Assembly: GCF_017939705.1 (NCBI RefSeq)
Contig: NZ_JAGKSQ010000001.1
Span: 186,001 to 250,000 of the forward strand
Length of the DNA stretch: 64,000 bases
Origin: Halalkalibacter suaedae
GTDB lineage: Bacteria > Bacillota > Bacilli > Bacillales > Bacillaceae_D
Direction: 5' to 3'
The notes beneath the pieces were generated by a model, which saw only the letters and a list, made by a program, of their open reading frames with translations, did not search any database and was not told where the DNA came from. The translations under genes were made by a program, and so were the position numbers. Positions 18,922 through 55,607 of this stretch are shown here, piece after piece (positions within the stretch are counted from its first letter, which is position 1; every line of letters starts with the position of its first letter).

Positions 18922-19216
18922 AAAAAAACCTTTCCACCCCACATAAAGCCAACATGTTATTTTGCGGCTGAAGGGGTGAAAAGATTCTTTCCACGGTACC
19001 ACCCTTATTCATTGAGCAGACATGCTCAATCTTATGGATAAGTTTTCACTTATCACGTTTTGGTAACGAGTGCTGTGAAACACTCGATCAGCCTTAGTTG
19101 GGAATCCGTTCAGGCTAATGCTCAGAGGTGAGTTTCATTAATAGGGACAACACCGCATCTCAGCAAAAACGGCTCTCTGTGGAAGTCCTCTATTAACTAC
19201 TTATCCTCTTCTACGC
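18922..19216 (-). ncRNA. Leucine T-box leader upstream of ilvB
   Basis: The T-box core AAGGGTGGTACCGTGG (18991–19006, minus strand) is followed by a terminator (18922–18983) with CTTTTCACCCC/GGGGTGGAAAG arms and a run of seven T. Upstream, the stem I features AGAGAGC and a specifier loop are visible; the specifier is CTC at 19130–19132, a leucine codon. Uncharged tRNA-Leu should bind and favour antitermination. The element starts about ten bases after the ilvD stop, so it acts between ilvD and ilvB. No clear promoter was found directly upstream. Confidence 0.93.
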
Positions 19217-19225
19217 TCTTATCTA

Positions 19226-21750: not shown

Positions 21751-21827
<77 letters not shown>

Positions 21828-21828
21828 A

Positions 21829-21902
21829 TGGAGCGGGTGATGAGAATCGAACTCACGACATCAGCTTGGAAGGCTGAGGTTTTACCACTAAACTACACCC
21901 GC
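21829..21902 (-). tRNA. tRNA-Gly (anticodon TCC)
   Basis: A 74-base tRNA with acceptor arms GCGGGTG/CACCCGC, anticodon stem TCAGC/GCTGA around loop CTTCCAA, T-loop GTTCGATTC and encoded CCA. One base separates it from tRNA-Arg; the two are clearly one transcript. Confidence 0.96.
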
Positions 21903-24102: not shown

Positions 24103-25194
24103 TTAGTAGCTTCCTGTGTTCACCAGCTCAGGTCTTGAAACAGGCTCTGCGGGTTGTCCCGTTTCTGTTAAAACATTTGCCTCACCATTAACTTGTATCG
24201 CCACTTGCTCGACACCTTCTTGTTCAGTTAATGTTAGCGCTAGCATGTTTAGCACTTCAGAGGATACCGCTGTTGATTGCAACTGACTTAACACCGATTC
24301 ATTAAAGTTTACTGTCACAACCCCATTATCATACTTCGGTTCGTCAAGCAGTGCGACCCCTTGACGGAAATCAGTTAATAACTCAGTTTGTAGTGAAGGT
24401 CCCTTGATCAGCTCATTAACAGCTGCAGCAAGTGATTCCTCCTTAAGACTAACTCGTCTTGTCACTGGGACATAGTAAGTGTTGTCCCCATTTTGGGCAA
24501 GGAAGTAAAGGGTGACCCCTTTACTATTAACCACATCTGTTACATTTCCTGACTCAATATTGATGCCATCCTCACGACTAACACCTTCCCCAATAGGCGT
24601 TCCATTCACCGGCATCATTGCTTGATCATAACCATTTACTTTAATTTGGACTTTTTCGACGTTTTCAAACTGTGTCAATGTCCATGTAATTGATTGCAGG
24701 ATTTGCATTTCCATATTTGGATCATAGTCCTTAAACTCACTAGAGAAATCAGCAATTGCTACGCCATCCTTTAAATTAACATCAACAATCGTCCCAGCAG
24801 GAATGACTGCTTTAAATCCATTCGGTAGCATCTCAGAAATAGGCCCACCATCTACTAAATACTCTAAAGATTGACGAAGCACACTCTCTGTTTTCGGAAG
24901 TTCTATCGTTTGCGGGACAACCATACCGTTTGCATCAATCAAATATAATTCTCTCGCCACATTCTCCACTGCTGCTTCTCCATCCTCACTACCTTCTTCA
25001 CCTTCTTCGTTTCCATCCGCCGGCTCTTCTTCAGACGGTTCCTCATCAAATACTAGCTCCTCACCATCTTCTACATAGCTTGTAGGTGGTGTATCCATCT
25101 CATTCGTCGCTTCATTCGAACCAAACGAACAAGCCGTCATTGTCATCACAGTTAATGCAAGAATGGGAACCCCTCTTCGTATTACTTTTCGCAT
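24103..25194 (-). CDS. gerM: GerM, sporulation and germination lipoprotein
   Basis: A 363-residue envelope protein needed in B. subtilis for engulfment and cortex structure; there it belongs to the sigma-E regulon. The N-terminus is a lipoprotein signal peptide (VPILALTVMTMTAC, cysteine near residue 21). An acidic linker rich in Glu and Gly (about residues 35–70) and two GerMN domains (about 100–215 and 230–350) follow. The ATG at 25194 has TAGGAGGG upstream. The longer frame to 25257 runs into the upstream hairpin. The leader region carries the structured element at 25254–25366. Confidence 0.93.
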   Translation of the reverse strand: MRKVIRRGVPILALTVMTMTACSFGSNEATNEMDTPPTSYVEDGEELVFDEEPSEEEPADGNEEGEEGSEDGEAAVENVARELYLIDANGMVVPQTIELPKTESVLRQSLEYLVDGGPISEMLPNGFKAVIPAGTIVDVNLKDGVAIADFSSEFKDYDPNMEMQILQSITWTLTQFENVEKVQIKVNGYDQAMMPVNGTPIGEGVSREDGINIESGNVTDVVNSKGVTLYFLAQNGDNTYYVPVTRRVSLKEESLAAAVNELIKGPSLQTELLTDFRQGVALLDEPKYDNGVVTVNFNESVLSQLQSTAVSSEVLNMLALTLTEQEGVEQVAIQVNGEANVLTETGQPAEPVSRPELVNTGSY

Positions 25195-25253
25195 TGTTTT
25201 CCCTCCTAAGATAGTTTGTACTCTATATATACGAGCCCCCCAAAAAGAATAGA

Positions 25254-25276
25254 CCAAGTTTTTTAGAAAAACTTGG
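25254..25276. repeat. Perfect hairpin overlapping one arm of the larger structure
   Basis: CCAAGTTTTT and AAAAACTTGG arms around a 3-base loop. On the minus strand it lies about 60 bases before gerM. Its 5' arm is the same sequence that closes the larger stem at 25266–25366, so the two pairings exclude each other. Confidence 0.8.
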
Positions 25277-25366
25277 CCTCCCCCGGCTACACAATGTAAG
25301 AAATCTCATCTTAGCCTTCCTCTATTATTGCCAAGCTCCGGTGTACGGGGGAGGCCTTAGTTTTTC
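25266..25366 (-). ncRNA. Unidentified branched RNA-like structure upstream of gerM
   Basis: Arms 25266–25285 and 25346–25366 pair over about 19 bases (GAAAAACT/AGTTTTTC and GGCCTCCCCCG/CGGGGGAGGCC). Inside, TACAC/GTGTA extends the stem, TAAGA/TCTTA forms a hairpin (25297–25313) and AGCTT/AAGGCT could form a third arm. The GC-rich arm stands out in an A/T-rich intergenic gap after the murI terminator. It matches no riboswitch or small RNA family that I can recall. It may be a gerM leader, an independent RNA, or a mobile palindromic repeat. Confidence 0.55.
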
Positions 25367-25434
25367 TTACCTCCCCTAACTCCAATCTCTTTCACCCGAC
25401 GTTAATGATTCAATCAAGAAAGTCCGTTTTCAAA

Positions 25435-25471
25435 TAAAAAAACCACTAGAGCATATCACTCTAATGGTTTT
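25435..25471 (-). terminator. Intrinsic terminator of murI
   Basis: Arms AAAACCA…TAGAG and CTCTA…TGGTTTT just after the murI stop, followed by seven T on the minus strand. Confidence 0.92.
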
Positions 25472-25473
25472 CA

Positions 25474-26289
25474 CTATTTTATACCTTGGCCCAATGTGAT
25501 TGATTCCACTCTTTCAACATTGACCTCTAACCACTGATCTGCAAGCCTTTTAAATCTTTCAGCACTACCTGTTGTAAAAAAGCTGTGTCTTGGATTGCGG
25601 TCTTCAGTAAAAAGGAGATTCTTATGATAAAGAAGACTACTAACCTCTCTAGCAGTTTCGTCACCAGAAGAAATGAGATTGATATCTTCTCCGACACTCT
25701 TACTAATTACCTCACGTAGTAATGGGTAATGCGTACACCCTAATATCAATGTATCGAAGTTTCGATGATCTAAGGGCTTTAATGTCTCATTTACAATTTT
25801 CTCGGCTTCTTCACCAAAAAAGATCCCTTGTTCGACTAACGGAACAAACGGGGGACAAGCTAAGCTATCTACTTTAATTTCACTATTGATTGATTTCAGT
25901 GCCTTCTCATAGGCCTGACTTCGAATGGTGCCAGTTGTCCCAATGACTGCTACGTGATCTCGCTTTGTCACCTTCAACGCACTAATTGCACCAGGGTGTA
26001 CGACGCCTACAACAGGAATGGTTAACTCCCTCTTTACCTCTTCCAACACAACAGCCGCTGCTGTGTTACAAGCAATCACCAACATTTTCATATCTTCTTC
26101 TAGGAGACGAAAAATCATCTCCCAGGTATACGTCCGAACCTCTTCTACCGTTCTTGGGCCGTATGGACAGCGTGCTGAATCACCAATATAGACAATTTCC
26201 TCTTTAGGTAATTGCCTCATGATTTCTTTGGCTACAGTTAGACCGCCAACACCCGAATCAATAACTCCAATAGGTCTATCCAACAACAT
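25474..26289 (-). CDS. murI: Glutamate racemase
   Basis: Makes D-glutamate for peptidoglycan (and for poly-gamma-glutamate in some bacilli). The two catalytic cysteines are in [11 protein letters not shown] (about residue 74) and [11 protein letters not shown] (about 185). The N-terminal [18 protein letters not shown] and the [11 protein letters not shown] loop are also diagnostic. At 271 residues it matches RacE of B. subtilis, and the position between a MarR gene and gerM is the same. Confidence 0.96.
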
Positions 26290-36894: not shown

Positions 36895-37121
36895 CAAAAA
36901 AAGCATCAGCAAGGAAAACCCCTCACTGATGCTAGTCATACCAATCCGGTACCACACTGCTCCCTGTTCTCTCGTGAGATAGTTCTCCACATCCATTTGG
37001 GTAACGGATGTGACAGCCCTATGCTTCTTAAACATAGGTCCAGCATCAGGACGTATGAGACGTCTTAACACTTCGGCGAATTCCCCTTTCCACTCTTGTC
37101 GTCGGTTTCTCATCTACCTCA
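36895..37121 (-). ncRNA. Lysine riboswitch (L box) with terminator
   Basis: On the minus strand the aptamer opens with GAGGTAGATGAG, contains CGAAGTG, CTGATGCTGGACCTATGTTTAA, the GGGCTGTCAC element and closes with GAACTATCTC. These match the conserved L-box positions. A terminator follows (GCATCAG…CTGATGC, 36903–36932, then seven T at 36895–36902). Lysine binding should stop transcription before lysC. A TATACT -10 lies at 37125–37130 with no good -35. Confidence 0.95.
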
Positions 37122-37228
37122 AAGAGTATACTGTTGGTTTTCGCGCCTCTACCATCACTTCATGATGAAGTGCGGCATATTCAATTAATTCTTATCTTAA
37201 CAAAGAGTTCTACTAACGGCAATAGACG

Positions 37229-55403: not shown

Positions 55404-55607
55404 GAGCCACCTCCAAAGGATTTTAACAAACTAAAGCAACCTCGGTTTCCCGATGCCCTCTTTTAAACAAAAAATAAGTGTGGGCATACTACGCCCACAC
55501 TTGTTGTGTCATCTAAAATGAAACTCATCATACCTGTCAACAATCCGTCAATCAGGTGAGAAGCGGGCGCTTCTTCTTGCCTTGTTCGTAATATTCAATT
55601 GATTACT
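55404..55607 (-). ncRNA. Probable L20 leader with internal attenuator
   Basis: About 200 bases of leader separate the promoter from infC. Within it a 10-bp hairpin AAGTGTGGGC/GCCCACACTT (55476–55502) is followed by TATTTTTTG on the minus strand, a terminator before the gene. A second hairpin AGAAGC/GCTTCT lies near 55560–55575. B. subtilis infC-rpmI-rplT is known to be controlled by L20 through premature termination in such a leader; the L20-binding fold was not worked out here. Confidence 0.65.

Follow-up and report, generated by a model that had tools for sequence, protein, structure and literature searches.

A hairpin repeat of Bacilli, probably mobile and tending to lie behind intrinsic terminators, between murI and gerM of Halalkalibacter suaedae

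The structured segment between murI and gerM of Halalkalibacter suaedae is probably a member of a repeat family that is dispersed in Bacilli and conserved in structure. The family tends to lie behind intrinsic terminators and is best explained as a mobile hairpin serving as a likely bidirectional terminator. Copies of the family are dispersed, hairpin B of its long form covaries, terminators are enriched upstream of the copies in two genomes, and in tandem arrays the canonical T-tract end is kept by the last unit only. Since the family is scattered and tends to lie behind terminators, the element is probably both a mobile hairpin and an extra stop signal rather than a gerM switch.

The window, i.e. 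the whole stretch of DNA analysed, comprises 64,000 nt of H. suaedae contig NZ_JAGKSQ010000001.1 (GCF_017939705.1), positions 186,001-250,000 of the forward strand, and all features described in this paragraph are on its minus strand. The upstream gene murI (racE), an ORF with the Pfam domain Asp_Glu_race, occupies 25474-26289. A terminator-like site with a 16-bp stem and a T tract was found 3' of it by terminator scan at 25438-25472, in agreement with the position after the murI terminator that an earlier, sequence-only reading had assigned to the structure; this site is the presumed target of the insertion. About ten bases separate the murI T tract from the element, a 5'-truncated long form at ~25263-25422. 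The long-form covariance model R1 matches 25263-25416 (contig 211263-211416) with an E value of 1.8e-27, whereas the 5' edge (~25422) is approximate and was placed by eye, by comparison with the second copy of the same genome (L130) and with gerM sites devoid of the element. Comparison with L130, where both arms of hairpin A are present, further reveals that only the right arm remains in the window (25397-25422). It is followed by a purine-rich linker, GGGTGAAAGAG...GGGGAGG (25370-25397), defined by conserved and invariant columns of alignment A1, and by hairpin B, TAAGAAAAACTAAGG-CCTCCCCCG ... CGGGGGAGG-CCAAGTTTTTCTAA (25263-25369), which is identified by sequence, folding and covariation. 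The stem of hairpin B runs into a T tract on both strands. Hairpin B is absent from the terminator-scan output for the window, its loop exceeding the length permitted by the scan; this counts against the terminator reading. Downstream, a gerM promoter-like block, GGTCTATT ... CGTATATATAG, is situated at 25222-25255, and gerM itself, an ORF with the Pfam domain Germane, occupies 24103-25194 with a likely ATG start at 25194. We also note that the minus strand of the window contains Rfam matches at gathering score to a Lysine riboswitch (36972-37159), a T-box leader (18969-19222) and an L20 leader (55466-55584), as well as two neighbouring tRNA genes at 21754-21902.

The letters at 25254-25366 match the description given in the sequence-only reading, and this stretch is structured as described; the element is longer, however, extending to ~25422, and half of the proposed alternative hairpin lies outside it. 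A closing stem of 19 pairs with an 11-bp GC-rich part had been proposed. The 11 G/C-rich pairs are present, but the stem has 20 pairs in total, 9 A/T-rich and 11 G/C-rich, with a 2x1 internal loop predicted by folding; its 5' arm (25346-25367) and 3' arm (25265-25285), both on the minus strand, are obtained by consensus as well as single-sequence folding. As for the proposed three-way junction, the GTACAC/GTGTA extension and small inner hairpins do fold, but the junction is absent from the consensus of the first seven copies, which predicts the closing stem alone. The 107-nt hairpin at 25263-25369, minus strand, folds at -44.4 kcal/mol with a z score of -4.90, and none of 200 shuffles equals it. 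The z scores of the 141-nt sequence are -2.58 on the minus strand (4 of 200 shuffles equally good) and -3.50 on the plus strand (1 of 200).

A search with a 171-base query returned one copy in the own genome, and tandem arrays of related genomes matched part of the query. At E<=0.001, some match was present in 8 of 60 genomes, part of these matches being to something other than this element. Read in the gerM direction, the units of the arrays consist of GGGTGARAGAG, a 16-17-base linker, TAAGAAAAACTAAGG or a similar stretch, a stem arm, a loop, the second arm and AGTTTTTCTAA. The stem sequence differs between copies and the loop is variable. A strict pattern retrieved six stretches (Alkalihalobacillus deserti, Halalkalibacter okhensis, Halalkalibacterium ligniniphilum and Bacillus solitudinis), and the earliest patterns, which were too strict, matched 5/41 genomes of the family and, in another search, 3/397 genomes. 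R1, built on seven long-form copies, matched 11/41 genomes of the own family at E<=0.001 and 13/41 at E<=1, including another copy in H. suaedae itself (E 4.6e-6) as well as at least 30 matches in H. ligniniphilum. Across the own order it matched 15/397 genomes at E<=0.001, many of the matches being to a short form of ~90 bases; the R1 copy numbers are lower bounds, with at most 72 candidates scored per genome in the family and at most 7 in the order. For the short form, the model R2 contains only 3 base pairs and acts mainly as a sequence profile. At E<=1e-4, R2, whose source copies came from some of the genomes searched with it, matched 42/394 genomes and 25/134 genera of the own order. Within the own class, it matched 16/398 genomes and 9/145 genera at the same threshold, 5 of the 16 genomes belonging to the same order and 11 lying outside; its copy numbers in order and class are likewise lower bounds (at most 13 candidates scored per genome). 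The number of copies per genome ranges from a few to dozens. In genome G229, GGCNAAGTTTTTCTAA with up to two mismatches gave 72 matches as compared with 14 for the reversed control. The corresponding counts in the own genome are 17 and 21, so the motif is not enriched there.

No family of Rfam 15 reaches its gathering score at the element in the window search, which agrees with the remark of the earlier reading that the structure resembles no riboswitch. All matches obtained in relaxed Rfam searches with seven long-form and ten short-form sources also fall below gathering score. A weak match to group-II-D1D4-3 in locus L275, below the cut-off of that family, lies outside the element. Plasmids gave no match to three short-form queries, phages none to two short-form queries, and viral contigs none to one strict short-form pattern; an origin from phages or plasmids was set aside on the basis of these short-form searches. 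Among openly licensed papers, no earlier description of the family was recognised.

The structure of the long-form hairpin B is under selection. In alignment A3, which contains 53 long-form matches (46 distinct rows) and is biased towards the structure of R1 because it was fitted to that model, 91.0 percent of the closing-stem cells pair and 14 of the 20 closing-stem pairs show changes on both sides, so that the compensatory changes which the sequence-only reading had suggested looking for are abundant in the long form. Both-side changes occupy 121 cells, whereas shuffles give 29.4 and the slid controls no more than 23; related sequences inflate such counts. The covariation score is 0.353, in contrast to 0.120 in shuffles and at most 0.088 when the partners are slid by 1 to 3 columns. 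RNAalifold applied to A3 kept six pairs, all six with both-side changes, and for the first seven copies it is 20 pairs that are predicted, 6 of them changed on both sides. The support for the structure stands despite the biases, as the result of the slides and the outer helix AGAACCT/AGGTTCT of the second own copy, L130, would be hard to obtain otherwise. Hairpin A, in contrast, is a putative pairing read by eye. The short form is almost invariant, with both-side changes in 3 of 908 cells. Within its hairpin B, columns 38-56 of alignment A6 can form another terminator-like hairpin, ACUUGGC/GCCAAGU, which precedes the T tract and excludes the main fold. In this hairpin 97.3 percent of cells pair, but 423 of 500 shuffles score as high; the covariation is at shuffle level and therefore indicates sequence conservation only, and the alternative was set aside.

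Closely similar copies are found at unrelated sites within one genome. Neighbours of the copies include genes for a LacI-family regulator, ribosomal protein L13, a HemN-type radical SAM protein, an SRP54-type GTPase, spoIIR and a DegV protein. The count of copies proposed in the earlier reading yielded a second copy in the own genome, flanked by a response regulator that carries a LuxR-type domain and by a DegV protein, and, elsewhere, copies and tandem arrays beside unrelated genes. In 1.59 Mb of genome G357 (54 percent of the genome, with genes taken as simple ORF calls), a search with one whole copy identified 28 places, i.e. 29 less one overlapping match on the opposite strand, with one start shifted manually to the edge that could be seen; none of the 28 lies inside an ORF of at least 100 codons. 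Eight identical cores from this genome stem from equal-score hits, and the fuller census shows variation.

The position of the copies relative to terminators was compared with random positions. For G229, 36 loci were used, some of them overlapping and four (L133, L134, L135 and L145) left unscored as they do not contain the exact 16-base end; 30 copies were listed, two had no recognised start, and 28 were scored. A terminator stands directly upstream on the same strand in 23 of these 28 copies, as compared with 95 of 4320 positions drawn at random from these loci. In G357, 17 of the 28 places lie behind a terminator, as compared with 54 of 4000 random positions and with 96 of 1501 positions located up to 100 bases behind same-strand ORFs, and the upstream gene is on the same strand in 23 of the 28 places. 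A looser test covered all but the weakest of the 63 A6 matches, from 13 genomes, and found terminator adjacency in 33/62 copies, as compared with 16/62 on the opposite strand and 230/2400 random positions. The adjacency is weaker in this set than in G229 and G357. The window copy follows the pattern, whereas the second own copy has no terminator directly adjacent upstream; the latter and the weaker adjacency in the larger set count against the preferred reading. As regards the features of a MITE, no target-site duplication was noticed by eye and one inverted arm lies inside the element; nor was a fixed target word seen by eye.

Thirteen of the 17 loci examined are arrays of the element. Left out of this count are L130 and L107, which have no tandem, L064, an unrelated minisatellite, and L066, which is interrupted by N; the A. 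deserti array, which spans two contigs (L059 and L132), stands outside the array analysis. Twelve of the 13 long-form arrays open, by eye, with a unit cut at its 5' side, the cut points being different; the exception is the array of G089, and in L060 the cut unit lies just ahead of the computed array edge. In all 13 arrays, a scripted check counted a single canonical end (TTTCTAA or TTTCTAG), which follows the last 5' stem arm. This layout fits a course in which a new copy enters the T tract of its predecessor and amplification then takes place. Truncated copies are uncommon among the short forms of G357, with ~3 of 28 places affected at the 5' side and none clearly at the 3' side. The minisatellite of L064 (G001:C139) has a 104-base unit and lies near a copy of the element.

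Two mutually exclusive folds in front of a sporulation gene had been taken by the sequence-only reading as the layout of a switch, with the segment as a gerM leader. The element is very probably not a ligand-sensing or bistable gerM leader: copies elsewhere have unrelated neighbours, the gerM site is without the element in 12 of the 13 genus genomes searched, and the second fold is confined to one of the 46 copies checked. The alternative hairpin itself is real as a sequence feature, since CCAAGTTTTT (25254-25263) is perfectly complementary to AAAAACTTGG (25267-25276), and the resulting 10-bp hairpin (25254-25276, minus strand) lies half in the gerM flank. It is, however, private to the window copy: among 46 copies checked (28 of the 53 A3 matches and 18 short-form copies), the 3' end of the element pairs perfectly over 8 or more bases with the next 30 bases in one copy only, the next best reaching 7. 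A search across gerM upstream regions did not sustain the link to gerM either. All 13 genus genomes searched contain gerM, and the site carries the element in one, the own genome, and is without it in the other 12. Variants of one block, GGTCTATT...GGCTCGTATACATG, are seen ahead of gerM in the genus genomes and in G089, and this block may act as the gerM promoter. In the window the promoter-like block stands between the element and gerM, and a leader role is therefore unlikely. G089, which belongs to another family, carries the element as a short tandem at nearly the same position relative to gerM. This second occupancy is not readily explained by chance insertion and speaks against the mobile-hairpin reading. 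A cis-acting gerM leader that regulates gerM in sporulation by two mutually exclusive folds could claim this occupied site in two genomes of different families as well as the perfect hairpin, but given the private nature of that hairpin, the 12 of 13 empty sites, the promoter-like block downstream and the unrelated genes adjoining other copies, it is scarcely credible. The alternative named by the earlier reading, a mobile palindromic repeat, is instead favoured by the copies at unrelated sites and by the empty orthologous gerM sites. Other palindromes or repeats were seen by eye just before the gerM block in L215, L216, L219 and L214 (G012, G010, G001 and G004, respectively). These differ from the present element, and the spot may thus attract hairpins.

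A full unit of the family comprises the putative hairpin A, a linker (purine-rich in the long form) and hairpin B ending in a T tract, and copies in sense orientation tend to follow immediately on the T tract of an intrinsic terminator. The 5'-truncated copy of the window is placed in this way, between the terminator of murI and the promoter-like block of gerM. According to the preferred reading of a mobile terminator hairpin, the hairpin would stop transcription from both sides and so separate murI from gerM. The element may be mobile now or may have been formerly, and targeting of its own T tract could start the arrays. The stem and T tract on both strands would also suit ordinary, non-mobile bidirectional terminators kept by descent or convergence; closely similar sequences at unrelated sites within a genome and the empty orthologous site in relatives make such an origin barely conceivable. 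Multiplication and movement of a trans-acting small RNA gene as a functional unit is very unlikely. The covariation of the long form, the conserved linker outside the stem and the canonical T-tract end kept by the last array unit alone, as though each array were transcribed in one piece, would suit a small RNA gene, but the patchy distribution (the 11 or 13 of 41 family genomes given above) and the few to dozens of copies per genome do not.

No mobilising enzyme was found, and the remaining alternatives concern its nature. Movement as DNA, either by a Y1 transposase in the manner of REP or IS200/IS605 elements or as a rolling-circle element with one fixed end, is possible but unlikely. Tandem multimers and one fixed end agree with rolling-circle movement. 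Hairpins lie near both ends of the element, 18 of 20 genomes tested gave Y1_Tnp matches, and a Y1_Tnp gene lies ~0.35 kb from one G229 copy. On the other hand, G022 and G132 have copies and no Y1_Tnp match, no fixed target word is apparent by eye, and the Y1_Tnp gene near the G229 copy bears its own flanking repeat. This RAYT-like gene occupies 1933-2532 of L089 on the minus strand, beside a copy of the element; an inverted repeat of its own, GTGCCTGTCACCACCCGAAATTTGTCGAA, lies to either side of it (near 1460-1496 and 2664-2694). A RAYT was set aside as the mobiliser because of this own repeat and the two host genomes with no Y1_Tnp match. A SINE-like origin, in which an RNA copy is reverse-transcribed into terminator T tracts by a borrowed reverse transcriptase, e.g. 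that of a group IIC intron, is quite unlikely. It is suggested by the terminator target shared with group IIC introns, which follow Rho-independent terminator stem-loops or other inverted repeats (PMC7923331). If the T tracts of earlier copies served as targets too, which is equally doubtful, arrays with a truncated first unit and one intact last end would result, and 12 of 13 long-form arrays (by eye) start 5'-truncated while 13 of 13 end canonically. Against it, truncation is rare in G357, and a strict-motif scan of the intact ORFs of at least 300 codons in 54 percent of that genome detected no reverse transcriptase; the two ORFs that matched both resemble other enzymes, and a looser motif matches 60 ORFs.

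The proposed mobile terminator hairpin would add to the known repeats a widespread structured element of Bacilli that has no Rfam entry and an unusual target, the tails of terminators. Across a genome, an element of this type can copy or strengthen terminators and alter the read-through between neighbouring genes, and it can pass wrongly for a riboswitch or a gene leader. The terminator target turns the identity of the mobilising enzyme into a concrete, testable question.

We rate the element as belonging among the bacterial structured interspersed repeats. It resembles bcr1 of the Bacillus cereus group, which is intergenic and of similar length and is listed as structure-conserved and as mobile (PMC2267715, PMC3733652). 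It also shares with the REP/BIME sequences that accompany RAYTs the features of being short, intergenic, palindromic, multiplied and non-coding (PMC3733652). In contrast to these, its consensus has no GTAG end, it is built of hairpin A and hairpin B, and two host genomes have no Y1_Tnp match; membership of the REP-with-RAYT class was rejected on the grounds of the missing GTAG-tagged end and the lack of Y1_Tnp matches in G022 and G132. Group IIC introns likewise insert behind Rho-independent terminator stem-loops (PMC7923331). Unlike them, the element is ~90 to 160 nt long and has no ORF, and none of its matches to Rfam introns reaches gathering score. By current naming, H. ligniniphilum, in which copies are numerous, shares its genus with B. 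halodurans. Bhal-1 of Bacillus halodurans is described as a type I stem-loop repeat of 74 bp with 36(32) copies and conserved secondary structure (PMC2267715). The accessible text makes no mention of terminator targeting, arrays or covariation for Bhal-1 (PMC2267715). Bhal-1 may be the short form of the element.
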